Positions 1-29,650 of a DNA stretch of 64,000 nucleotides are shown one piece after another (the stretch's first letter is position 1; each line of letters starts with the position of its first letter). The stretch is from Isoetes taiwanensis. Lineage: Eukaryota > Streptophyta > Lycopodiopsida > Isoetales > Isoetaceae. The position numbers and the translations under genes are program-made. Below the pieces are notes generated by a model. The model had not been told where the DNA came from, searched no databases, and saw only the letters and a list, made by a program, of their open reading frames with translations. The stretch spans positions 62,001 through 126,000 of the forward strand of contig JAJEKV010000252.1 in the NCBI GenBank assembly GCA_021234155.1. Reading direction: 5' to 3'.

Positions 1-572
1 TCCTTCAGCTTAGCATACAAATTGCACTTTGCAAAGTTGTTTGAAGTTGCTATGGTCACATGCTTGAAATGCTTATTCCATAGCCTACTAAAACTGGGCT
101 GGGATATAGAGGCTACTCCAAGTTCCCGAAGCAATGCATTTATTTCCTCTAGTATGCTCTTCTGGGTACAATGGGATGGCAATCTCTTCTCAACAACAAC
201 TCTACCCTGTTCATCCTTCTTACTCTTATGTGGCATGTTTTCTGCATTGAACTCCACATACGTTTCAAATATTTCCTTTGCAGCTATAGTCCTAGAGATT
301 GGTCTTTGCTGGCCAGTGTTCCCATGCAATGCAATTCTAGTTCCATTTTCATGTCTCTTTTGCCAGTTGTGCCAGGAAGAGGTTGGAATTCCATGTATAG
401 CCATCCATGCTTTCGAATATATCCACTTTCCATTCAATGGAAATCTTTTTTTCTTCGATCTTTCATCCTGAATTGCATAGCCAAATATAGTGTACATGAA
501 ATTTCTCCTACTATCACACTTATGTTCTTGATATGTAGCTCTTGCTCCCACCAACTCCTCTATTGTGAACAT
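1..572 (-). CDS. Uncharacterised mobile-element-type protein, N-terminal part, runs off the window
   Basis: The minus strand is open from an ATG at 572-570 to the window edge, about 190 codons with no stop. The protein begins MFTIEELVGARATYQ and ends here around SFSRLWNKHFKHVT..NNFAKC. It is basic and rich in Trp and His, and has a Cys near the edge that could start a zinc-binding cluster. The layout (arginine-rich start, a middle with HGNTGQQRP and NMPHKSK, then an R-W-x-x-x-F stretch ahead of a Cys) reminds me of long uncharacterised transposase- or integrase-like proteins of algae and land plants, but I cannot name a family. The plus-strand frames over 22-620 are antisense shadows. Upstream lies low-complexity AT-rich DNA with no clear promoter. 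No catalytic residues are in view, so the function is open. Confidence 0.5.
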   Translation of the reverse strand, partial: MFTIEELVGARATYQEHKCDSRRNFMYTIFGYAIQDERSKKKRFPLNGKWIYSKAWMAIHGIPTSSWHNWQKRHENGTRIALHGNTGQQRPISRTIAAKEIFETYVEFNAENMPHKSKKDEQGRVVVEKRLPSHCTQKSILEEINALLRELGVASISQPSFSRLWNKHFKHVTIATSNNFAKCNLYAKLK

Positions 573-599
573 TCTAACACAAGAGGCCCAACAACATTC

Positions 600-860
600 A
601 CCTCCTCTACACAATATTAGAGTAGAATGGTTTTTAATAACATTAGAGTAAGAATTGTTTTTTTTTTTAACATTAGGGTTAGAATGGTTTTTTCTTTAAA
701 ACATTAGGGTAAGATGCTATTTTAAAAACCATATGGGTAATATGGTTTTTCAAAGGTATGGGTATGGTTTTTCAAACATATGGGTAATATGTTTTTTTTA
801 AAACCATATGATAATATGGGTTTATAGGTATTAATGGTTCACGACAGTTATTATTTCTCG
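600..860. repeat. AT-rich degenerate tandem repeat
   Basis: Loose copies of a unit like 'acattagggtaagaatggtttt' followed by 'aaaccatatgggtaatatggtttt' run head to tail, with homopolymer T tracts. No gene is seen. Confidence 0.6.
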
Positions 861-959
861 AACAAAAATCGAGGCATTTTTAATGCCTCTTCAACTTTTT
901 CTCTTCAAATTTTTGCATGTCTCTTCTTTTTGCATGCCTCTTCGCATTTTTTTGCTTCT

Positions 960-1170
960 AATCTAATCGCGCCTCGGCTAATCGGCTTCAAACTCGGCTA
1001 ATCGGCTACAACAGATTGCTAATCGGCTTCAAAGTCGGCTTCTCGGCTTCAAATTCGGCTAATCGGCTTCAAACTCGGCTTCTCGGCTTCAAACTTGGCT
1101 TCTCGGCTTCAAACTCGGCTATTTGTCGGCTTCTTGGCTTCAAACTTCGGCTTCGGCGTCAAAGCGGGGG
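960..1170. repeat. CGGCTTCAAACTCGGCT short tandem repeat
   Basis: A unit of about 18-20 bases (cggcttcaaactcggctaat and its variant with 'ttct') occurs about ten times. It is GC-richer than its flanks. No gene function is visible. Confidence 0.75.
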
Positions 1171-1815
1171 TTAGAATGAATGGGTTTATGATTCTGAATG
1201 AATGGGTTAGAATGAATGGGTTAGAATGAATGTGTTTTAGGGATTCTGAGTGTTTTAGGATTCTGAGTGTTTTAGAACAGGCTATGCTTTAGATTAGAAC
1301 AGGTTAACATTAAGAAGAGGCTATGTTTTAGAAATATGAAATAGATCAGGAATATTATGAAACAGATTAGGAATATGAATAGGAATAGCATTATGAACAG
1401 ATTTTATTTCATATTGCTATTCCTATTTCATTTATCTGTTCATATTCCTTGCCTAATGTTCTTGCCATATTTATCTGTTCTTACCCTAATGTTTTAAAAA
1501 AACAAATAGTCTGTTCTAGATGCAAGGAAAATAGTCTGTTCAGACTATGCAAGAACAGAAAAGAACATTAGGCAAGAAATATAGCATCTTACCTTAATTA
1601 TGCCTAATTGTTCTAGTCTGTTTGTGTGTTATATCTGTGCAATACAGTGCATTCAGGAATTCTTGTACATTCACAAGATTCCTATCTGCTATTGCTCTAT
1701 CTTATTTCATTTGTCTGTTCATATTCCTTAAACCCTAAACCTTAAACTCGGTCTATGTATCAAATGCTTAGTTTCTTTTCTGTTATATAAAATGTTAAAT
1801 GCTTGAATATCATAA
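1171..1815. other. Intergenic, short words repeated in both orientations
   Basis: The stretch holds 'gaatgaatgggttag' iterations (about 1175-1230) and then A/T-rich words such as 'gaacattaggcaagaa' and 'tctgttcatattcctt', which recur directly and inverted between 1300 and 1730. No supported gene is present. Confidence 0.5.
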
Positions 1816-1950
1816 GATTGGACGAAATCGCGCCAGGCGCATTTCGTCCAATCATTTATGGTCTCTGCTGAAGTTTTCAAAACGCGCCAGGCGCGTTTTG
1901 AAAACTTAATTATAAAAATAACCCTGTAGAAATCGCGCCTGGCGCGTTTT
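1816..1950. repeat. Three palindromes with core CGCGCCWGGCGCG
   Basis: Three palindromes lie within 135 bp upstream of the small gene at 2038. The first (1816-1853) is symmetric over 38 bases around GCGCCAGGCGC. The second (1871-1907) is a perfect 37-base palindrome with arms AAGTTTTCAAAAC. The third (1930-1950) is shorter. Each is centred on CCAGG or CCTGG, a CHG methylation context. They belong to a family seen again at 2435-2485, 3981-4113, 5313-5428, 10361 and 13138. Confidence 0.85.
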
Positions 1951-2037
1951 GAACAGTTACACATTTCTGCTTTTTTTTCTGGCGAGCTGAATATATTTTC
2001 TAATTAGTTAATTTTTCTCGTTTCTAGTATAATTCAC

Positions 2038-2409
2038 ATGGCCGACTCTCAAACCAGTACACCACAACTAGACGACAATCAACGGTGGACGGTGTATAAG
2101 TTAGTTCTTCCCGTAGCTGTTCAAAACCTACAGGAGGAGATGGAGAAGCCATACGACAGTCTTTATGTAAGGCCATGGGAATGCTTCCATCGTATCACGG
2201 GGCTTATGCGCAGCCTCATGCTTTTGATGTTTCTAATGCCCACAAATAAGTACGAGGACCTGTTTCGTGAGGCCCTTAATCGCCGAGGTACTCTGATATG
2301 GCGACTCGATATTCCGAATGAATGGAACGATGACGTCATCTTACTGTATGAAAATACGAACCAGACACGGTGGCTAGCTGATGTGGAGGGCCTCTGTGAC
2401 ATTTTGTAG
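2038..2409 (+). CDS. Hypothetical protein, 123 aa
   Basis: This is a complete reading frame from ATG 2038 to TAG 2409. The protein starts MADSQTSTPQLDDNQRW and is acidic, with a hydrophobic Leu/Met-rich centre (about residues 58-70: GLMRSLMLLMFLMPTN) that looks too short and too polar at its ends for a confident membrane segment. The end has an LLYENTNQTRWLADVEG stretch. I do not recognise a family. It sits between palindrome clusters at 1816-1950 and 2435-2485, so it may belong to the same locus as the ParB-like gene downstream. An initiating Met after an AT-rich leader and a balanced composition make it more likely coding than not. The antisense frame over 2163-2483 is a shadow. Confidence 0.5.
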   Translation: MADSQTSTPQLDDNQRWTVYKLVLPVAVQNLQEEMEKPYDSLYVRPWECFHRITGLMRSLMLLMFLMPTNKYEDLFREALNRRGTLIWRLDIPNEWNDDVILLYENTNQTRWLADVEGLCDIL

Positions 2410-2434
2410 AAGGAAAGCCTTTGAAATATGTAAC

Positions 2435-2486
2435 AACTCGCGTCTGGTGCATTTTGATAACATATAACTCGCGCCTCGCGCATTTT
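2435..2486. repeat. Two imperfect CGCGCC-type palindromes
   Basis: Copies at 2435-2455 (AACTCGCGTCTGGTGCATTTT) and about 2466-2485 (AACTCGCGCCTCGCGCATTTT) are decayed members of the palindrome family. They lie just after the stop of the 123-aa gene. Confidence 0.7.
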
Positions 2487-2749
2487 GATAATCTATCTAT
2501 TGTACAGCCCCATTCTCTCAATATGTTAATCAATACTTTTATTTGTGCTTTAGTATGCTATCATCAACACTTTATTATGCTTATTTTACACAATGCCGAA
2601 AACATTGAAATCCTTTGACGTCCCCCAGCCAGTTTGACCAACCCCAAGTAGCCATACATTTTGATTAATGTGTGGTCTTTAGGGGTTAATAAGACTGGCT
2701 AAGCAACATCAAAGAATCCACTTCTTTGTATCAGAAGGTTTGTACATAC
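2487..2749. other. Intergenic, nothing recognised
   Basis: AT-rich sequence with no supported gene. It ends at the splice donor of the minus-strand DUF8039-like exon. Confidence 0.5.
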
Positions 2750-3200: not shown

Positions 3201-3427
3201 GTTGATCAGGTTTCTTGAAAAATTCGGTGGCGAATGAGCATGTGGGAGCAGCGTGCCGCCACATAGGCGTTTCTTGAATAATAAAAATAAAAATATTAAT
3301 GGATTTGCTTTAATAAGAAAATTGAGTTTTTAATTTGAAATGAGCGGGATAAGCGGTTAATATAGGCGGGATAATTGTAATTTAAAATCGGGGAGCAATC
3401 TGACGGTTCAGATAATGCACCCATACG

Positions 3428-3434
3428 TATAAAT
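3428..3434 (+). promoter_or_regulatory. Candidate TATA box of the ParB-like gene
   Basis: TATAAAT lies 44 bases before the ATG at 3478. The spacing suits a plant TATA box with a short 5' leader. Confidence 0.5.
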
Positions 3435-3598
3435 TTGAATCGCGTCCCATAACATTTCATTCGAACATTGCAATTCTATGGCATCTGGAGGATCTGGTGC
3501 AGCGAGAGGTAGAGGCGGAGGGAGAGGCGCAGGGAGAGCTGGGCGACGGCCCAACACTCAGGAAACTCCTGAACAGGTCGCCAGCACTCAGAAAGCAG

Positions 3599-4143
3599 GT
3601 ATTTATCTATGCTTATACTATTTCTTCTCGATTTCTACAGTTTCTGTGTTATTTTTAAGTTTTGTCTACTGTCTGTGTCGTTTTACATCATTTGTCTACT
3701 GTCTCTGTGTTATTTCTACTTTTTATATTGTTTCTGTATCATTTCTACTGCTTTTACTACCTTGTTTTGTGTGTTTTGTGTGTTTCTTGTTATAATCTTC
3801 TCCTGTACTCTGTGTTTTTTGTTCTGTATTCTCCAGTTCTTATAATGTAGACCGTTTAATTATAGTTTCTTGCACTTGTTTGTTTATAGTTTTGTTCTGT
3901 ATTCTCCAGTTCTTTGGAGTCGACTTTTTTGTAGCTTAGTATGTCTCTTATAATATAGAGCGTCTGTAGGGCCTCTATAAAAAATGCGCTCGGCGCAATT
4001 TATAATAGAGAGTGTCTATGATATGATTGTTTTAGGCTGTCTCCGATACTTGCATCTATACCATTTATGTTTTCTGTTGTAAGGCGTCTATCAAAACGCG
4101 CTCGGCACGATTTCATTTCTCACCACATGATTGTAACTTTCAG
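3599..4143 (+). other. Intron 1 of the ParB-like gene
   Basis: GT at 3599 and TTTCAG ending at 4143 define a 545-base T-rich intron. It joins exons in phase 1 (GCA-G|GA-TCT). Two members of the palindrome family sit inside, at 3981-4001 and 4093-4113. Confidence 0.7.
3981..4113. repeat. Two GCGCTCGGCGC-type palindromes within an intron
   Basis: AAAATGCGCTCGGCGCAATTT (3981-4001) and AAAACGCGCTCGGCACGATTT (4093-4113) have the same A-tract/GC-core/T-tract layout as the CCWGG palindromes, with a TCGG centre in place of CCAGG. Confidence 0.75.
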
Positions 4144-5273
4144 GATCTTTTAAAAATGTGAAAAGAAAAGTAAAGCAAGTGCAGGGTCACGGGACATCGG
4201 CACCGAAAAAACCAAGAACAGAGGAAGATGTATCTGTTGTAGATTTGGCACACGTTGTGACCATGGACGATACCACTGGAATAATAAAGGCTCAGGTAGA
4301 GCCTCCATGTCCAGAAGAAGATCTACCAGAGGGCTCTGAATGGTATGTGGAGATCTTCAAGACTAGCGGAAAGACAGATCTTATTTTCATGTCTAGAGCT
4401 AAGGAAATAGATCAAATGAAGAAACAAGGTATTCTGATCACATGCGAAGAACAGGACGATTCATACTGTCCCGTAACTTGAAGCGGGTCAGAAAAATAAA
4501 AAAGCTTGAAGAAGTTAATGCGCTGCAGTGCCAGTTCCTTTAAAGAGACAGCCCTAAGAACGGATGAGGCCGCAGGTAACCTCTTCAAATTTGGCTGGTC
4601 AGGTGGTGAGCCATTGACACCAAAAAAAATATGTGAAGGTCTCTCAGCTGTGAGAAGAGCAATCAGTACAAGGCCATCAGCTAGTGTGTACCTACAAGCT
4701 TTAAAAGAGAAGGAAGATGCAATAACTAGAGGTAGGGAAACAGCAGACGCTCTACGCATTGCAGATTTGACTAGTGATGACGATAAGGCGAGACAGTTAG
4801 AGGCCATGAGCAAACTCAAGAAGTATCTGACAAGTATCTACTGGGCCTTAACTTCACGCATTCAGTCTACGTCGACAGGCTTTTCAGGTCCACAAAGGCT
4901 ATGTGTGTCAGCAGAAGATACGACAAGCAGCACGCAGTGGAAATAGTCAACAGCATCATTGAAAACCCAGGGCAGGTGCCAATGCCGGCAGATGTGGTGC
5001 CTTTTGATCTGAAGACGAAGAAGGTGTTGATATGGAATAAACTTGAAGATTTCATTGAAAACCTAAAATTCACTTCATGATAATAGATGGCCAGCATTCA
5101 GTGGAGGCGCAGAAGGTTTTGATCAATCAAGCACAAAAAACTGGAAATCAGTTATTCTATAGACTATACTCAGTCAGAAATTGCCAGTTCATCAGTGGCT
5201 CAACAACAGCAGCAGAACTAGCCGAAATCAGCGTGCTACTAAACGACATGGGAAAGACATTTTTATACAAAAG

Positions 5274-5485
5274 GTATTTCTGTTTCCCACACGTAGCTAG
5301 TCTGGAACTTCCAAACCGCGCCAGGCGCGATTTGTTGCTTTAATGTGCATGTGCTATAGCATTCCAAATCGCGCCAGGTGCGTTTTCATTAATCACGGAT
5401 TTACAAGAAACGCGCCTGGCGCGTTTTATATTATTTGTTTTGACGGCCTGACTATTTTATTTATCTAACGGCCCATATTTTGCAG
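5274..5485 (+). other. Intron of the ParB-like gene holding three palindromes
   Basis: Donor GTATTT at 5274 and acceptor TTTTGCAG ending 5485 give a 212-base intron. Splicing is in phase 2 (AG|T = Ser). Three of its 212 bases' worth of motifs belong to the CGCGCCWGGCGCG family. Confidence 0.7.
5313..5428. repeat. Three CGCGCCWGGCGCG palindromes in one intron
   Basis: Copies lie at 5313-5333 (AAACCGCGCCAGGCGCGATTT), 5366-5386 (CCAGGT variant) and 5408-5428 (AAACGCGCCTGGCGCGTTTTA). The first two have a CCAGG core and the third a CCTGG core. Confidence 0.85.
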
Positions 5486-5825
5486 TCCGTATGTGGAGCA
5501 GTTGCGGCACGCTCATAACCATTGGATCGAATATGGGAAACCAATGCCGACCAGACAAGGGCAATCTAAGAGTGCCGAATTCAAATTACTAGAAAGGACA
5601 CTGTGCCAAACCATAATACAGGACAATAGTAAGAGCACCAGATCAAAGAAGAAAAAAGGGGATGAATTAGGTACTAGCTCAGAAGCTCAAACGGTGCCCA
5701 AGGATGCCTGCAAGATTATTTTTTCTTCTGACTGGGTATGGGAAAAGTGGAACGAATTCTGGGACGCCTATACGGAAAAGAAGTTGCCAGATTCGTCTTG
5801 CAGGTTTCCTCCGCAAGATACGTCT

Positions 5826-6167
5826 ATTTAAATTAAAATCCCCCTTAAACCCCCTTTGGTTTGGGTGCATATTCACACGGGGGGTTACTCCGGGCAACGA
5901 GAGCTGTCGGATGGGCATATCTGCCCTTTATTCCAAAATCTGGACCGTACATAGCGATCCTCGTTTGTGGGGTATGCATGTACAAGTTTTTGTATACTGT
6001 ATATTAAGGTTTGCAAAATACTATAAGGTTTGACAGAATGTACTTAATGGTGTTAATTTTGTACATGTATTGTAAATATATTTTTGGCGCTCTCGCTGCC
6101 CTACGTAACCCCCCGTGTGAATATGCACCCAAACCAAAGGGGGTTTAAGCGGGATTTTAATTTAAAT
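5826..6167. repeat. Inverted-repeat core A of the transposon family (left end of element 1)
   Basis: The 342-bp core has inverted ends of about 78 bp beginning ATTTAAATTAAAATCC and running through CCCCTTTGGTTTGGGTGCAT to a ..GGCAACGAGAG border. Copies in the same orientation as here lie at 59762-60098, and in reverse at 12281-12617. The flank to its right (to about 6262) carries 'TTGGGCCCTTCGGGCCC', a short hairpin also seen after the copy at 60098. Confidence 0.85.
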
Positions 6168-6478
6168 GTGTTAAATGCAATGGTTTGTGTTAATAATGTT
6201 AATGATAGTTGTGTGTTGATTGTTATATTAAAAAAAAATTTGGGCCCTTCGGGCCCTAACTAATGCAAACTTAGATAAATGTTATGGGCCTAAATATTAA
6301 TTACTAAAAAGCACAATAACATCAAGACAAACAAATTATTCCCATTGCAAACAACTATGAGTGCATTTTGTAATCTCAATTCCCTGCCAATTCAAAGAAT
6401 TTGGAGCCTTATTCTGGCCAGTATGCAATATTTAATGGTGAAACTATACACTAGTTCATCCCATAAGCAATTGTCGTG

Positions 6479-6763
6479 CTAAACTGAAGTGTCCACTAGA
6501 GAGATAGTTGTGTCTTGATTCTCTTTGCTCCGTGATTTACAAGTGAAGTAGAACACACTACTCGACATACAAAATACCAAGCTGAGAAATGTGTACATCT
6601 CTATAAGAAGGGGGGCTTCCCACATCTTTGAAGCCACATCTATCTTATAACCGTATCGAGGCACCCCAATCATCCTGTACTGGAATAAACTGTCCACAGA
6701 TGCCATGCTTAAATTGTTCAAGACAAACAAAAGAAGAGCTACCTGAGTTCTTCCTTTCACCAA
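6479..6763 (-). pseudogene. Coding-looking fragment, 94 aa, inside element 1
   Basis: This minus-strand open frame begins MVKGRTQVALLLFVLNN and contains a hydrophobic segment (LIEMYTFLSLVFCMSSSVFYF) of about 21 residues that could span a membrane, followed by basic residues. I recognise no family. Its place in a non-autonomous element suggests a captured host exon. Confidence 0.25.
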
Positions 6764-6767
6764 AGCA

Positions 6768-7028
6768 TAGGCTCATCTAAGGATATACTCTAGATGGAAG
6801 GAGAAGGGTCTATGCCAGCTGAAGGACATTTGGTCAGAAGAAAAGGGTAAATGGAAAGCTTGGTCGTTAATCAAGAAGATTGTGGGAAATACACAAGGGG
6901 ACAGAAAGCTCTTAACTCTTGTATTCCAATTGTTTCGGGAGGTATTTCTGAAAAAGGATCCAATTGAGTTTCGGGAAACTGACGAAGTAACCGTTGATTA
7001 TATTCCCCAGTACGAATATTGGATATAA
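6768..7028 (+). pseudogene. Coding-looking fragment without a start codon, inside element 1
   Basis: An open frame of about 84 codons runs to a TAA at 7026-7028. It reads RWKEKGLCQLKDIWSEEKGKWKAW, then LLTLVFQLFREVF, and ends DYIPQYEYWI. Lys/Trp spacing of the 'LKDIW..xxWKxW' kind recalls the linker after plant LINE reverse transcriptases, but this is a weak likeness. It has no ATG of its own. Confidence 0.25.
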
Positions 7029-7413
7029 ATTCAAACTGATGATCTGAAGTAAAGAATCATGAAAAAAGTGGACATGATTTCAGGCATAGAGGGAACAAAC
7101 AAATCGGCTCAAACAAAGGAAACTTGTTAGTGATACAAATATTGTAGAGGAAAAGCGGCTACAAAGTAACAAAGTAAGGAGTGCTTCTATTTATGCAGCT
7201 CCTCTTACTTACAGTGCCTCTTATCTAACCTGACATTAATTTAGCTGGCTCAATCCCTGATGCAACAAGGCATACTAACGCAAGCCCACCTTCAACCAGC
7301 TCACCAAGATTTGGCAGTAACAGTGACAAAAACAGTGAGATTATTCTACAATACGGCTGACTTCGACATATTTACAAATGTGCTGCCCTTAGGCTTAATA
7401 AAGTTAGCATACT

Positions 7414-7767
7414 TTAGAAACCTGTCCGTGGCAGGCTCCTATCACAAAAGGTCGTGCTGTTTTGGAGATAATAGTATCGGCTCAATATAATTGCTTCCTT
7501 CACTTTTTCTACAAATCTGGCCGAGAATGTGTCATGGAATGTTCGGAAGAATTCATTTGAAGGGTGATCTGCAGATATTTTTCCCATTGCAAGTACCTGG
7601 CCACAGTGTAACACTTTCTTAATGAGAAGGAATCCCTTCATTCCATTAAGCTCGACAATTTCTTCTAAGGTGAATTTAGATTGCTTTCGAGTTACGCAAA
7701 ATCGGATAGATAGGTTAAAAACTTGAAACATCGCATAAGTGATATAGGTTAAAAACTTGAGTTGCAA
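7414..7767 (-). pseudogene. Coding-looking fragment, 117 aa, inside element 1
   Basis: The minus-strand frame contains KFTLEEIVELNGMKGFLLIKK, then GQVLAMGKISADHPSNEFF and ARFVEKVKEAIIL. Composition is protein-like and unlike its AT-rich flanks. I cannot name the source gene. It is probably captured host sequence. Confidence 0.3.
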
Positions 7768-8479
7768 GGCTATATAAAAACATTACTAAGGAAGGTTAAG
7801 GAAGGTTGGAACCTCGGTAAGAAGAATAGCGAAGAGCAATCCCCAAACTGGACCCTAGGAAAGCGGAGCTCCATCTGTGGCCATCATAGGTTCGTCATGC
7901 GTGCGGATCAATTTCATGGCAACCATGGGCGAGGCTATATAGCATACAAGAGATGATACATGAGATAATATTGAAACCATATAAGCATCCTTGGTTTTGT
8001 TCTCAGGACTCTGCCTTTTTCCTTTTGCCCTGCAAAAATTGTAAACGAATTCTTTCTAAGAATGTCACATTAATCTTACCCGCTAACTAAGAGACTTACT
8101 CTTGCCGCTGCAACTCGGGCCCTGTAGAATCAATTAGGGAAAAGTTTGAAGATTTTGGTTTGAAGATTTTGGCATCGAATTTCTGATCGCAAAATGTAGC
8201 ATCCACCCTGATTGACAGTTTCATAAGTCCAGATGCCGTCTTAGGATGAGTCAAGACTTCCCAGCTCCATGAAAATCGATCTCAGAACTCATGCAACGTA
8301 ATTCTTTCTTCTGCAACCTGTCTAATCCCTCCATGGTTCTGCCATAACGAAACTGCCATGGAGCTCCTGGAAGCCAAAAAAAAATATTTCGTGAACTCCC
8401 AAAGGAGCTGCGCTGCTTAATCTGCCCTAATCCGAAACCTGGCTTGATCTACCCAAAGGACGGAATCCGAAGCACCCTA

Positions 8480-8714
8480 CTTCTAGGAGAACCCTAAAGT
8501 GACAGCTCTCGAGCCTCGCATGCTATATTACAAAGTTTTTTTTTTTTTCAAGGAGTTAAACCATTGTCTAAGTGCCATAAAAAACAATGAAAGCGTATGC
8601 GCACTCTAGATATACGCATTAGTACATCAATTGAAATACACCACAAAATCATAGCAAAACCTTAGTGAAAAGCGTACAAAAATACAAAAGTAACCCCCTG
8701 TTATTATGCTACAT
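8480..8714. repeat. Conserved right terminus of the transposon family (copy 1)
   Basis: About 235 bases align by eye with 62700-62953: shared words include 'ctcgagcct..gcatg', 'taaaccattg', 'gcgcactctagatata' and the end AAACCCCCTGTTATTATGC. The last 115 bases also match 11154-11268 in reverse complement. Host sequence resumes directly after 'gctacata'. Confidence 0.75.
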
Positions 8715-10337
8715 ATTTTTTATTTAGGTGTCACAGAGATGAGGAAGGCACAAGGATTGGATGATGCAGGATTAATCTCTGTCCTAGAGAGGTGCATCAG
8801 AAAGGAAGTTGTCTACAAGAAAACGTCTGCAGCAAAGCACTTGATATCTTTCGAAGATGCCTGCGAACAGCTAAAAGATATGAAAGTCCTGAAAAAGGCT
8901 GTTGGCGAAGAATTGTAAAGGCTTACAGGAGACTTCATCTTATCAGAGATAGGCTTAATGCAAAAGTACAACGTATCTAATGATGATATTAAGAAATATG
9001 TGTTTTGGTCAAAAGATTTTCTGAAGCAACAAAAGTCGAAGAATGTGGCAACCCTGAAGGGAATTCACACGAAAGTAGCGTCTGACCTAAAAAGAAAAGT
9101 TGCTTTGGTGAAACAGACACCAGAAGAGGAGTCTCCTTTTTTCTATAAGGTGTCCACTGGTTATAAGCGTGCCATACCAGACGTGGGTGATGGGCCAACC
9201 GACATCACTCTATTTGTTCTTGATAGCCGTGGCACGAGATGGACACAAGATGATTACAGCACCTTCTTCAACACATGCGGTGGTTTTACGACTGAGATGC
9301 ATTATACCATTGTGACAGTTTGCCACTCCGACATGTCCTACGCATATGCACTATCTGCTGCAAATGATCTCGAATGCATTACTGATGAGGCAAGCAGTAA
9401 TGATAGATGAAAACAAAGATAATGAGTTCAGTACCGAAAGTAAGATCTCACATGTGCTAGTCCTTATGATAGCCATTATGGATGATAAAGAATATGAAAG
9501 ACTCAAGGGGAAACCAGAAGGTGAGAAGATTGCTTGGCAGTGCTATCGGCTAGATGAACCCCTAGTGAAGAATGTTTTTTATGTCGAATCCAATGCTGAA
9601 GACAAAGGGAATAGGATTGCAGATGTGGATGTGGACCTTATAGAGGACAAAGAGGAAGAGGAAGAAGAAAACTTCGTCCACCCTGTCCTTAATTCACCAA
9701 TCAAGTATGAGCTACTGACGGCGCATAAGGGGAGGCTGAACAAGTACGGGTTTTCTTTGGCCCTTTCGAGTTTTCTGATTGAAGCCTTCTGCCCTTTAGA
9801 GTCAACGTGTTGGGAGTTTCATGTTGGAGGTTATGTCAGTCGGGAAGCTCTGAAGCTAGCTAGGAAATGCCAAAGTGTGGTCTCTGATGGTCAGGCCAAG
9901 GACTTCCTTGATATTTTTTTCGAGAAAGTGCTAGAGGTGGCACCCAGGGGTCCGATAGGTGGTGCAAGAAATAAAGCTTCCACCTCTAAGGCCGAATTAC
10001 CTCCAGATCTGGCTAAAGAGCGGGAGGTCATGAGAAAGCAGATGGAGCAGATAAAGATGAATCTCGTCAATTAGCCGGATAACTATGCGGCCGAGATCGT
10101 GCCTATACTTCCAATCACATATGAAACTCCGACGGAAGGGGATATACACAACGCAAACCAAGAAGACAAAATCCAAGATGATAGAGTGGAATCGGAAAGC
10201 TCTAGTCAGGTTAGCATAAAGAGTAATGAAGTATCAACCATAGTTCAAACACTAAGTGATGTGGTTGACACTTCTGGCAGACCGAAGACAACCGAGAGTA
10301 AGCTCATCATTGCGGAAGTTGAACAGGAACCAGAAAG

Positions 10338-10426
10338 GTATGTTCTTCAAACAGAAATGAAAATCGCGCCAGGCACAATTTCAATTTTTTTTCCTTGTCT
10401 TACAAGTGTGTGCTTTCTTATTACAG
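10338..10426 (+). other. 89-nt intron before the HAD-like domain
   Basis: Donor AG|GTATGTTC and acceptor CTTATTACAG|A splice in phase 2, giving ..EQEPER|PKPVSSKIL. A member of the palindrome family lies inside it. Confidence 0.75.
10361..10381. repeat. CGCGCCAGG palindrome inside the 89-nt intron
   Basis: AAATCGCGCCAGGCACAATTT is an imperfect copy of the palindrome seen in the introns of the first part of the locus. Confidence 0.8.
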
Positions 10427-11329
10427 ACCTAAACCGGTTTCCTCCAAAATTCTGGTGTTCAATTTGAATGGAGTGCTCTGCAAAACGTTACCTAAAGCAA
10501 CATTCGACCTATCATGGTATGCACAGAAACCATTTGAGACACGTACGAAATGGGTATATCCGCGGTCGTATCTGAAGGAGATGTTAGACCAAGCTTTCAC
10601 TTTATTTCGTTGTGCAATTTGGTCATCGATGGAGAATAGAAATATACAGGAAGTTTTGAGAGTAGTTCCTGAACTACATAGAGATTGGGCATCTGTTTGG
10701 GATCAGAGCAAATGTAAATCATTTAAAAACCCGAAGGATCCGACAGGTAAAAATATATTTGTGAAATGCTTGAGCAACATGATGGATGACTTGAGCGTTG
10801 AGGAGAAGGAAGGCATCGTCATAGTTGATGATGACGCCTTGAAGTGTTGCTTCAATCAGTCACAGTCACTAAATCCACCATCCTATCATCCTGATATGGT
10901 TACCACAGATGATTTTCTACTTCGCTTCATTGGTGTCATGCAAGAAATAGCGTCAGGGAGATCAGTCGAGGAAATACAGAAAGTATACCCGCATCTTGAT
11001 CGGACAGGGGAAATTGACAGAGAACTTGAGAAAATTGTCTTAGAAAAGGAACTATTTTGATATATGTATACCGACAAATATGAAATATACGTTACACAAA
11101 AGTTTTGAATATATATTGCGTAATTGTAAAATAACTTTAAAATTGTTCTAGAATATGTAGCACAATAACAGGGGGTTACTTTTAGATTTTTATACGCTTT
11201 TTCACATGGTTTTTCTATGATTTCGTTGTTGTATTTGTTGAGGTGTACTAAATAGTATTTCTAGAGTGCACCCTTTATGGGCCGTTGATTTTTGTTGGTT
11301 GGAACAATCCGAGGGTTGTTGTCTTTCTC

Positions 11330-11545
11330 TGCATGTGTTTGTGCATGAATACTGCGCATGCGTATGCATGTGCATGTGCACATGCATGTGCATGTGTGTG
11401 CATGTTTATGTGCATGTGCATGTATATGTATATGCATGTGCATGTGTATTGTGCAAGTGCAAGTGCAAGTGCAAGTGCAAGTGCAAGTGCAAGTGCAAGT
11501 GCATGTGCATGTGTGCATGTGTGCATATGCATGTGTACTTGCCCT
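11330..11545. repeat. (GTGCAT)n and (GTGCAA)n microsatellite
   Basis: Mixed GTGCAT/GTATAT words are followed by eight consecutive GTGCAA-type hexamers (about 11453-11501), then more GTGCAT. All open frames here, with Cys-Met or His-Ala repeats, are products of the repeat and not genes. Confidence 0.95.
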
Positions 11546-11928
11546 CTTGGATTCTTATTGCCGGAGTGGATTTTACTACCACGAGATGGATTTTTTGCTC
11601 ACACTTACAAAGGTATTTGTTTTTTAATGTTTCTTCAGTTAGCATAATGTTGGTTTTCTGATTCTACAATGTAGTGGTGCAAAAGCCCCTTTTGTTTCCT
11701 TCCTAAGATTTGCTGCAGATTCAAGTTTAGGCCCCCTGCTTGCTTCCAACTCTTGGATATTCCTGGCTGCCGGATTGCTCATAGCAGCTAGCCTTTAGCT
11801 TCAATCAACAAACGGATTCTTATGCACTGCTGTAAAGTGGATTATTCCGCGCCCTTTTCCATGTCCACCTTGATCAGTCAAACAGTGGCCACAAGAATGC
11901 ATTTATATTGTAGGTTTGGAACTTTAAT

Positions 11929-12975
11929 CGAACCATAAGGTGAATCATGCATTACCTTTAAGCTAGAGATGGAGCATCCAAAATCATATGGATTGATAAA
12001 CAATGGTGTCATTGTGAAAGAGAAATAGTTGTAGCGGAAGTAACAATATGTAGCATAATAACAGGGGGTTTTCTGGTTTGAATTCTAAAATTTTTGTCAC
12101 ACGGGAGGGTGGCGTCCCTAAGGCGGAAGGGGCCAAATTTTTTGCAACACAAACCATTAATATCCAACATATAAAGTTAAATCCCCAACACATAACAACC
12201 AACACATAACAACCATTGACATTAACAACCAACACATAACTACCATTGACATTAATTAACACAACCATTGGGTCCAACACATTTAAATTAAAATCCCCCT
12301 TAAACCCCCTTTGGTTTGGGTGCATATTCACACGGGGGTGACGTAGGGCAGCGAGAGCCCTCATAATGTATTTTGCACGTACGAAATTAACATCATATAG
12401 TATTCCGCTTGAAATCTTATAGTATTTTTTTAATCTTGTTATACAAAGATAGCAAATTTTATACTTGCATACCCCACAAACGAGGAACTTTACGCATGCG
12501 GTATAGATTAAGGAATAAGGGTGAATATGCCTATCCAAATGCTCTCTTGCTTTCTGAGTCACCCTCGGTGAATATGCACCCAAACCAAAGGGGGTTTAAG
12601 GGGATTTTAATTTAAATGTGTTGGACCCAATGGTTGTGTTAATTAATGTCAATGGTAGTTATGTGTTGGTTGTTAATGTCAATGGTTGTTATGTGTTGGT
12701 TGTTATGTGTTGGGGGATTTAACTTTTATATGTTGGATATTAATGGTTTGTGTTGCAAAAATTTGCCCCTTCCCGCCTTAGGGACGCCACCCTCCCTCCC
12801 GTGTGACAAAAAATTTTAGAATTCAAACCAGAAAACCCCCTGTTATTATGCTACATATTGTTACTTCCGCTACAACTATTTCTCTTTCACAATGACACCA
12901 TTGTTTATCAATCCATATGATTTTGGATGCTCCATCTCTAGCTTAAAGGTAATGCATGATTCACCTTATGGTTCT
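11929..12975. repeat. About 1-kb near-perfect palindrome (foldback)
   Basis: Arms of roughly 410 bases (11929-12343 and 12562-12975) are inverted copies of one another about a centre near 12452. They begin GAACCATAAGGTGAATCATG on the left and end with its complement. Each arm carries the 23-bp word ATATGTAGCATAATAACAGGGGG, then CACACGGGAGGGTGGCGTCC, then AACACATAACTACCATTGAC repeats, then the 80-bp inner repeat. A spacer of about 220 bases separates them. Confidence 0.9.
12281..12617. repeat. Inverted-repeat core B, reverse orientation
   Basis: This 337-bp core is homologous to 5826-6167 and 59762-60098. Shared inner words include, in reverse, 'catgcgtaaa..ttcctcgtttgtggggtatgcaa'. Confidence 0.85.
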
Positions 12976-12979
12976 AGAA

Positions 12980-14390
12980 AAACTATATATATTGTTGAGA
13001 ATATAGATTGTGTAATTATAAAATATTTTTGCAATGATGACACGCGTTCATGCTGTTAAATTATGTGAGATTTTGTCCTTAATTTTGTTAACTTCAGTAC
13101 TCTAAAATATAATAGATGGTATATTTACTGTCAAGTAAATTGCGCCAGGCGCGATTTGTACTACGAAAAGCCTTGTTTCTAATTGCCAGCTTGCAGATAT
13201 TTAATCAGATACACTTGTTATTTTACTATAAGATTTTTGTATTCGTCCGTCTTGGTATTAAAAATATGCAAATTGCACGATTTTCATGTTGCCCACCCCT
13301 ACAGTCATAATACGATCAAATTGCATCTTATTTTACAACAACCGTCAAATTTTCCACAAAGTGTGTATTCTCGGACTGAAAATGAAAACAATAAAAAATA
13401 TGGTCACGTCAAGAAAATGATCGAAAATAAGCTTTAATGGCGCGATTTTGGAATAGATATAATCCCCAAAATATTTTAATGATGGTTTATATCTTTCTGC
13501 TTTCCATTGATCTTAATAATACTGGTGTACCTCGTTTCACAGAAAAATAATATGTCAAACTTGGGGTATATGGCAGTGGTTTTGCCCATTACTCTTTTGA
13601 CAAGCTGGTCAGATATATTGGACTCTCGCCCTGAATAACAGAGAAATATAACTCTCATCCTAAATAATAGAGGAATCAACATCCTATCCATATTTTCTTC
13701 ATTTTGCATAGAAAACTAAGGTAAAAAGGAAGACTCATAATCTAATGACTCTACAGATAAAGGAACTGATAACGGAAGTAGGTTACATGGAACAACATGT
13801 GTTGACTTTATATCTGAAGTCTTATCAACACTGCATTTCATGATATGCACCATCTTCTATGGAACAAAGCTCTGAAAAGATGACAACATCATATTAGCTC
13901 TCGAAAGATGCATCTAGGAATAACATATTAACAGTAAACCACTCTGCATATCTGAAATACTAAAAATCTCATATTATCAGAAATAGATATTTTAATCTCG
14001 GTAGAGACAAGACAATCTTGTTTTTGGCAAATTTAAACAAACAATGCCAGATTTCTACTTATTCGAATAAATATAGCTTTATTATTAGCAAATAAGCTTC
14101 CAACTTTATCGTCAATGGTCTAATTTGTTAGAATCAAGCCACTTCTATAGAATAATTAATGCAATTGTTCTAATTCACCACAATGCACTAGCTCAACAAT
14201 ATGACTAGAATAATTCTTACAATCTAGACAATTTCCCAATGCTTAGATAAACACCTTCATAAATAGTTTTAACAACCATATACCATTTCAATGGTAATGA
14301 TATTTATTCAGAAAGCACTGTTCATTTGGACTGAACAATTTACTGTAGCAGTTTCAAGGTTCTTTGTATTGATCTAATGGATGAATTAGA
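12980..14390. other. Locus remnant and AT-rich DNA without a supported gene
   Basis: 13.0-13.4 kb resumes the sequence type seen before element 2, including one palindrome at 13138. A minus-strand frame at 13476-13709 (77 aa, MQNEENMDRMLIPLLFRM) has no recognised motif. The rest is AT-rich. Confidence 0.4.
13138..13157. repeat. GCGCCAGGCGCG palindrome, most downstream copy
   Basis: AAATTGCGCCAGGCGCGATT lies beyond element 2. A half copy (GGCGCGATTTTGG) follows at about 13439. Confidence 0.85.
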
Positions 14391-29084: not shown

Positions 29085-29650
29085 CAGACCGATTTTGAGA
29101 ATGTAGAAATCTGTCCTGGCGCGACGTGTGAGACATGGGTCCTAAGTGGGCTAGGCTTACTCAATTTAAGTGATCTAAGACTGTAATTCCACTAAACTCA
29201 TCGAGTTAGGCAGAATTGACCCCTTACTTGGTCGATTTGGGCTGTTTTTGGGCATTTTGGGCATGGTCTCACCGTTGCCCGACCCAGATTCCTAAAATCT
29301 AGAAATCTGTCCTGGCGCGACGTGTGAGACATCGTCTCAATTTTGCTCAAAAGCTCCAATTTGACTAAAACAAAAGCTAGAATTCTATAGCTAGAATTTG
29401 TTTTCGGTCCTGGCGCGACATGTGAGACCATCCTATTTGGCTCGCTAATTTTTGACGTGTGAGACCATCCTATTTGGCTCGCTAATTTTTGACTTTAACT
29501 GTTACTAGTTCACTTTAACTGTGAGACCATCCTATTTGGCTCGCTAATTTTTGACGTGTGAGACCATCCTATTTGGCTCGCTAATTTTTGACTTTAACTG
29601 TTACTAGTTCACTTTAACTATTACTAATTCACTTTAACTGTTACTAGCTT
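29085..29650. repeat. Leader repeats: GTGTGAGACC units of the LTR element
   Basis: CCTGGCGCGACGTGTGAGAC occurs at about 29113, 29311 and 29404 (last with ACATG). From 29415 to 29600 a unit of about 38 bases (GTGAGACCATCCTATTTGGC + TCGCTAATTTTTGAC) repeats five times, alternating with CTTTAACTGTTACTAGTTCA (29490-29650). This lies in the leader between PBS and the gag-like region. Confidence 0.85.

Follow-up and report, generated by a model that had tools for sequence, protein, structure and literature searches.

A two-gene DNA transposon of Isoetes taiwanensis with a ParB-like accessory gene and lineage-specific palindromic arrays

Introduction

Sola1-1_Ec32, a DNA transposon of Ectocarpus, encodes opposite its transposase a protein of 1104 amino acids (aa) that combines ParB with a DNA methyltransferase; the excerpted account of it cites green and red algal cases (Iyer et al. 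2011; Petroll et al. 2025) and only suggests that such proteins bind and mark their own element (PMC12477816). In Arabidopsis, the VANC proteins of VANDAL transposons (PMC5735166; see also PMC10398659) have been shown experimentally to cause methylation loss, and the first of these reports describes their targets as often tandem repeats that vary between related VANDAL elements. Here we analyze a stretch of 64,000 nucleotides from Isoetes taiwanensis (assembly GCA_021234155.1, contig JAJEKV010000252.1, forward strand; C423:62001-126000 in our numbering), hereafter the window, together with the genome of 1,658,258,908 bases in 1110 contigs. The window contains a copy of a large two-gene transposon, whose accessory gene, gene 2, is the subject of this report.

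As far as the excerpts on Sola1-1_Ec32 go, the Isoetes element resembles it in being a DNA transposon of large size whose accessory gene and transposase lie on opposite strands, and gene 2 likewise joins a ParB-like domain and a region that is methyltransferase-like only in part in one long product. The likeness is one of description, and gene 2 differs in its length (~1,280 codons, introns and insertion left out, versus 1104 aa), its decayed methyltransferase motifs, an added C-terminal DLNGVL NIF/HAD domain and its vascular plant host. The Isoetes element also contains lineage-specific palindromes, which the excerpted account does not mention for Sola1-1_Ec32 (PMC12477816). With VANC, as excerpted, gene 2 has in common that it is an accessory gene of a plant transposon and that motif arrays differ between related elements; no sequence relation is claimed, and methylation loss is an experimental result for VANC and a proposal for gene 2. 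By analogy, Sola1-1_Ec32 would be the closest precedent in anatomy and VANC in behaviour. Gene 2 thus compared appears to be a land-plant variant of the known ParB-plus-methyltransferase accessory gene, with a HAD domain added, the methyltransferase decayed and candidate self-recognition sites nearby. A literature search found nothing joining Sola, Isoetes and transposons, and the relevant paper found for ParB together with transposons or algae was the one on Sola1-1_Ec32 (PMC12477816).

Results

Gene 2 belongs to a transposon

Gene 2 is part of a two-gene DNA transposon with terminal inverted repeats (TIRs) that is abundant in the Isoetes taiwanensis genome. Copies A (contig C907) and B (C1070), of which 24 kb each were read, have ~12.3-12.5 kb in common, and the window locus has most of this sequence. 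The decayed window copy extends from C423:60074 to window position 13487 (15,414 bp) and is flanked on both sides by TATA, its target site duplication (TSD). The TIR measures 29 bp, with AACCATCATTCAATTAAATTGGGATTATG as the left end and its reverse complement as the right end of copy B; copy A lacks the end of the right TIR. When the best 40 left and best 40 right ends were paired on the same contig and strand at distances of up to 50 kb, a perfect 4-bp TSD was present in all 11 end pairs, representing 10 independent sites (ttaa, in two copies with flanks in common, gatt, ctac, aaca, tagt, tata, gtta, caat, tagc and gaac). One left end on C1021 had two listed right ends, and only the farther one entered this test. 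The paired ends span 12.2-12.7 kb in four cases, 9.2 kb in one and 15.9-48.6 kb in six. TIR-like ends also occur with one mismatch left of locus L012 and right of L038 and with five mismatches at L016; at L015 none was found at up to five mismatches.

Gene 1 occupies the left third of the element on the minus strand and encodes a transposase with a DUF7869 domain (PF25273, E 2.2e-34 in copy A), a family on which a literature search found no paper. Its candidate catalytic acids, picked by eye, lie in HDKMDQQK, LQLDNCAGQNKN and GHTHEDVDALF. Gene 2 is encoded on the plus strand in the right half. In all four further loci with flanking sequence at hand (L012, L015, L016 and L038) the transposase likewise lies left of gene 2 on the opposite strand. 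The Sola superfamily is characterized by 4-bp TSDs, TIRs of 11-1124 bp and sizes mostly of 2-9 kb, with some >15 kb (excerpts of PMC10741241), and the Isoetes element agrees in TSD, TIR length and size. We call it Sola-like on account of its 4-bp TSD, its size and the accessory gene opposite the DUF7869 transposase, whose kinship to Sola1/2/3 is putative. A preliminary description of the window had proposed an unusual nuclear plant fusion; the accompanying TIRs, TSDs and opposite-strand transposase show that the locus is instead an accessory gene that moves with a large transposon family.

The two halves of gene 2 form one gene

The peptides quoted in the preliminary description are where it placed them: MASGG.. 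starts at 3478, IIDGQHSVEAQ occupies 5080-5112 and NLNGVL..VWDQSKCK..VDDDAL lies inside 10425-10988. In addition, DITLFVLDSRGTRW begins at about 9201 and GGYVSREALKLARK at 9826. The spliced gene had been called phase-consistent, which does not hold for the window copy, a pseudogene with four in-frame stops (about 4479 and 4497 in exon 2, 8916 and 10072 in exon 3) and three frame changes (about 4820 and 5066 in exon 2, 9380 in exon 3). Three introns with GT-AG ends were read from the sequence (3599-4143, 5274-5485 and 10338-10426).

The separated halves, suspected earlier to have been one gene, are indeed joined in paralogues and together constitute gene 2 of the transposon; the refuting case named in the preliminary description, paralogues with the halves always apart, therefore does not apply. 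In 14 contigs found with both half queries, the match to 5828 resumes directly at 8714, and six further loci (L012-L017) show the same exon order at 42-91% identity in the exon-2 (DGQ) segment. The intervening 5830-8713, with TATTT at 5825-5829 and again at 8714-8718, was inserted into this element copy later.

Copy numbers given here are lower bounds or unconfirmed first-look candidates, and lineages are named by their palindromes, described below. Genome searches returned 963 first-look candidates for query 3300-5900 and 4972 for query 8600-11260 (40 scored in each), 2736 in another gene 2 search (150 scored), 5981 for a lineage II exon-2 query (107 scored) and 9908 for gene 1 (150 scored). 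The gene 2 pattern is dispersed through the genome far beyond chance.

Two individual loci show rearranged gene 2 sequence. At C926:277668-281749, a single copy has undergone internal amplification, so that part of the gene is repeated three times head-to-tail with a spacing of 1457 bp and 94% identity to the window. Upstream of the lineage III element at L015 lies a fragmentary second gene-2-like piece resembling lineage II (L015 with L113 reversed, about 907-2067).

The first half of gene 2 resembles DndB

DGQHR domains have been assigned to the ParB/sulfiredoxin fold (PMC4619093, in excerpt), and DndB has been counted in the ParB superfamily, with regulatory, NTPase or nuclease roles proposed for it (PMC10853773, in excerpt). 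Our comparisons support the presence of a DGQHR/DndB-like domain of the ParB superfamily in the first half of gene 2, consistent with the ParB-like reading in the preliminary description. DndB (PF14072) matched the intact exon of copy A with E 0.01 and three of the eight members of alignment A1 with a best E of 0.0021, counting matches up to E 1; the alignments used here include copies with frame changes. When bacterial and archaeal genomes were scanned for the DGQHS core, 300 stretches fitted the pattern and one relative was confirmed: L097, a protein from an Alcanivorax metagenome-assembled genome (35% identity, E 9e-7, DGQH(R/S) core in common). L097 is a clear DndB (PF14072 E 2.4e-16), and hhalign aligned the gene 2 profile with it at a probability of 87% (E 3.7e-6). 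Common to gene 2 and DndB/DGQHR proteins (PF14072, TIGR03187) is the core R..D...EI.......P......IIDGQH(R/S), and the (I/L)SAxLN stretch further on in gene 2 may, judged by eye, correspond to the FxxxN motif. Gene 2 departs from these families in having DGQHS rather than DGQHR, in its eukaryotic setting, in its fusion to other domains and in its score below the cut-off.

Several observations weigh against this assignment. Pfam gave no match on the window's own short first-half segments, and the DndB score of the first A1 member was below the Pfam cut-off (16.7 vs 29.1 bits). The NCBIfam DGQHR model matched one of eight A1 members (E 0.088) and was outscored by the unrelated TIGR04372 (E 0.0035, two of eight), while a PDB profile search with A1 yielded E 0.23 or worse at best and nothing related.

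The last exon encodes a HAD domain of NIF/FCP1 type

The FCP1/HAD domain of the preliminary description, called dead there, is confirmed as a NIF/FCP1 HAD domain in the last exon, where PF03031 scored 51.3 bits against a cut-off of 21.8 over positions 1-156 of 160, nearly the whole domain. VDDDALK is present, whereas DLNG replaces the DxDGT-type nucleophile motif of NIF/FCP1-type HAD phosphatases; the second catalytic Asp is missing. Of 20 loci with NIF exon sequence, 19 contain DLNG[VL] according to a pattern search, and the window copy has NLNGVL. In an unrooted NIF tree, the transposon domains form one group (support 1.000), and seven DLDxTL/DMDETL domains form another (0.978) to the exclusion of the transposon domains and of four other DxNGVL domains; these four fall between the transposon and canonical groups with weaker support. 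Since the fetched domains are only 18-28% identical to the transposon HAD (DxNGVL domains 23-28%, canonical ones 18-21%), the source gene was not found. We take the domain to be plant-like, and some of the numerous NIF/HAD copies of the genome may be due to the element. A literature search for NLI interacting factor with transposons found none among the best matches.

NIF genes with a DLNGVL HAD and different N-terminal parts were seen at L116:6695-9835 (C1037) and in L117 with L110 (C1100); in L116 a RING finger (PF13639 E 5.6e-4) precedes the HAD. Many genome NIF matches cover a similar profile range, and for this reason DLNG-HAD may be a module common to several repeated gene families.

A segment of the second half weakly resembles methyltransferase motifs X and I

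The methyltransferase reading of gene 2 is weak: one segment faintly resembles motifs X and I, without catalytic motifs, and may be a decayed methyltransferase. A search of viral contigs with E. coli YhdJ found 50 loci, and 26 of them went into a beta-class methyltransferase profile. Alignment A2 reached E 0.0023 against it (best of 30 shuffles 0.023). The alignment of the segment IKYELL..GGYVGREALKLARKC (15 rows) to motifs X and I had an E of 3.5e-4, a probability of 37% and a score of 30.3, compared with 21.2 for the best of 200 column shuffles and 10.5-15.8 for other controls. The resemblance is confined to the half with GGYVSREALKLARK, where the methyltransferase reading of the preliminary description finds some backing; it fails in the DITLFVLDSRG half, on the motif-IV side, which did not match the profile (score 12.3). 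GGY stands where GSG is expected, and neither (D/N/S)(P/I)P(Y/F/W) nor FxGxG occurs in any of 20 gene 2 reconstructions, some of them partial. It also counts against the resemblance that the better-scoring segment was cut out after the weaker first result with A2, that a PDB profile search with A2 gave no match and that the single-sequence structure model of window:9316-10074 (pLDDT 37.9) was useless. Pfam on A2 returned only PID (E 0.12, two of eight members), and PHROGs returned single matches only (E 0.054 or worse).

A virus or phage origin was considered for gene 2 and rejected: viral-contig scans with alignments A1, A2 and A3 gave 27, 28 and 54 pattern matches, respectively, and no confirmed relative.

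Palindromic arrays differ between lineages

Words repeated most often in the elements include the halves of an odd palindrome, whose sequence differs between lineages. At up to one mismatch, the lineage I palindrome CGCGCCWGGCGCG occurs 10 times in copy A, 4 in copy B, 7 in the window copy, 9 in L005, 6 in L017 and 7 in L014; CACGCCWGGCGTG of lineage II occurs 12 times in L012 and 9 each in L044 and L045; and CGCGCANTGCGCG of lineage III occurs 13 times each in L015 and L016 and 9 in L013. Altogether, 17 sequences contain 129 such matches, with lineage IV hybrid sites counted under two motifs, and none falls within the coding sequence delimited by tblastn. Copies generated by a first-order Markov model contained 0.0-0.1 matches on average, and 105,171 bases of flanks and other non-element DNA contained none; in the window outside the element there is one palindrome with two mismatches, at 29405. 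Exact sites genome-wide outnumber the reversed pattern by 1639 to 1 for CGCGCCWGGCGCG, 1771 to 1 for CACGCCWGGCGTG and 102 to 2 for CGCGCANTGCGCG. Clustering is common among the first 50 sites per strand, and the sites on C139, C35, C96, C1014 and C939 adjoin or overlap gene 2 matches or L015.

Copy A has its sites between the divergent genes (4845-5582), within introns (7144, 8481-8696 and 10738) and close to the right end (11966). Both arms of the palindrome differ alike between lineages, which is the pattern expected if a dimeric protein binds there. The NIF tree agrees with the palindrome lineages (support 0.629 for I, 0.997 for III and 0.934 for IV; only one member of lineage II was included). 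Such lineage-specific arrays in elements of this kind were not found in a literature search.

Lineage IV elements (L118 with L038 on C1018; L038-L042) carry hybrid sites that differ by at most one base from the lineage I motif and likewise from the lineage II motif, possibly palindromes in transition or decay.

Discussion

Self-recognition as the preferred role

Purifying selection preserved the fusion protein of gene 2 during the spread of the element. Taken as a whole, these features are best explained, in a judgement we hold with moderate confidence, by a fusion-protein gene that may give the transposon a self-recognition or anti-silencing function. As a dimer, the gene 2 protein would identify its own element by the CpG-rich palindromes of its lineage, for which candidate sites exist between the two genes, within introns and toward the right end. 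Sitting on the regulatory DNA of the element, it would shield this DNA from host silencing or reverse the silencing, by analogy with the action of VANC on VANDAL elements. The methyltransferase-like part would serve as a DNA-contact or base-reading scaffold and not as an active enzyme, and the HAD part would have a host phosphoprotein as its partner or substrate, such as one belonging to the transcription machinery. Because the catalytic methyltransferase motifs are missing, site occupancy or recruitment is preferred to methylation.

A fuller version is more tentative and, to us, possible rather than probable: a eukaryotic transposon may possess its own ParB/parS-like self-recognition, in which protein and palindromes co-diverged into at least three lineages while a DLNG HAD and a dead methyltransferase scaffold reach the silencing or transcription machinery. 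Three points count against self-recognition through the palindromes in general. The palindromes were picked from the same elements in which they were counted, only the genome-wide and flank counts being independent; lineage IV has few sites, and hybrid ones (0-4 matches per motif in L038-L042); and the reader of the palindromes may be the gene 2 protein, the transposase or a host factor. The parS site of bacterial ParB is read by a helix-turn-helix domain, and none was identified in the gene 2 protein. With thousands of candidate target sites and three matched protein-site lineages, sequence-specific self-recognition is directly testable. The locus further suggests that a DNA-modification module of bacterial type persisted after its catalytic motifs were lost and acquired a HAD domain of plant type.

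Alternative explanations

According to the main rival, which we regard as unlikely, gene 2 is a transposition co-factor without a silencing role: the gene 2 protein or the transposase would bind the palindromes and thereby assemble or regulate the transposition complex. The model is TnpA of En/Spm, which reportedly binds repeated 12-bp motifs. Such a role would fit the retention of palindromes together with gene 2 in three lineages and the company of the transposase in all four further loci, but the sites of copy A are not subterminal: apart from one toward the right end, they occupy the central spacer and the introns.

It is improbable that gene 2 is what the algal proteins have been proposed to be, an active self-modifying enzyme that would bind its own element and methylate it. 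Although a protein of that kind lies opposite the transposase in Sola1-1_Ec32 and the motif X/I similarity points the same way, the catalytic motifs are absent from all the reconstructions, partial ones included, GGY takes the place of GSG and the motif-IV half is without a profile match.

Still more improbable is a passive passenger, that is, dispensable gene fragments captured by the element as in Pack-type transposons. Gene 2 copies of the main subfamily do carry stops and frame changes, and ten comparisons from two pairs within that subfamily gave relaxed ratios of nonsynonymous to synonymous divergence (dN/dS 0.43-1.10). Between diverged copies, however, all segments are under purifying selection: in 30 comparisons (six diverged within-lineage pairs by five segments), dN/dS was 0.08-0.42 in 23, and the other seven were saturated at synonymous sites. 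The exon architecture is unchanged at 42-91% identity, and 16 of the 25 best matches of the lineage II exon-2 query contain no stop. The dN/dS pattern therefore indicates that the whole protein was under selection during the spread of the element, while single copies decay. A point on the other side is that all 25 between-lineage comparisons (five pairs) were saturated, with proportions of differing sites of 0.75-0.91 at synonymous (pS) and 0.21-0.44 at nonsynonymous (pN) positions.

A host gene or unusual nuclear fusion later broken by a transposon, for which the introns and the presumably plant-like HAD could be adduced, is already contradicted by the many dispersed copies bounded together with the transposase by TIRs and TSDs, and we give it next to no credence.

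Further features of the window copy

Table 1. Coordinates of the transposon copy, its genes and its palindromes (window positions unless a contig or locus is named)
Feature	Position	Strand	Remarks
Left end of element	L011:8074 = C423:60074		TATA just before it
Gene 1, remainder including DUF7869 domain	L011:8515-9999 = C423:60515-61999		before the window
Gene 1, part in window	1..623 (match 623-3)	-	residues 194-400 of the N-terminal open reading frame of copy A, tblastn 94% identity
Spacer between divergent genes 1 and 2	611..2700	.	palindromes at 1829, 1883, 1934, 2470
Spacer palindromes CGCGCCWGGCGCG	1829, 1883, 1934	.	1, 0 and 0 mismatches
Gene 2 exon 1	3478..3598	+	MASGGSG.. start, low complexity; sequence and tblastn
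Gene 2 exon 2	4144..5273	+	C-terminal end: DGQHR/DndB-like (ParB-superfamily) domain, supported
Intron 2 palindromes	5317, 5370, 5411	.	0, 1 and 0 mismatches
Gene 2 exon 3, first part	5486..5829	+	genome matches and tblastn
Nested repeats inserted between gene 2 halves	5830..8713	.	TATTT at both edges
Gene 2 exon 3, remainder	8714..10337	+	VTEMRK.., DITLFVLDSRG region, segment faintly like methyltransferase motif X/I
Single palindromes	10365; 13141	.	2 mismatches, intron 3; 1 mismatch, near right end
Gene 2 last exon	10427..11060	+	NIF/FCP1-type HAD domain, PF03031 E 1.4e-13
Right TIR of element	13439..13487	.	4 mismatches in last 21 bases; TATA next
Contigs with uninterrupted gene 2 halves (14)	C1036, C547, C966, C1094, C907, C1028, C1047, C1053, C856, C1034, C1070, C1051, C926, C1041

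Relative to copy B, the window copy is missing 831 bp at 609/611, and it contains a further later insertion at about 11129-13107. The first part of the insertion between the gene 2 halves (5826-6167) is an inverted repeat resembling a miniature inverted-repeat transposable element. Positions 11923-12981 form a long inverted repeat with 173-nt arms (98% identity) and more inverted repeats nested inside; its ends are in common with the repeats at 5826-6167 and 8640-8717/11152-11229, and together these repeats are a nest of fold-back elements inside the transposon copy. Short tandem repeats occur at 957-1141, as 20-bp units with TCGGCTTCAAA, and at 11352-11547, of TGCAAG/TGCATG type.

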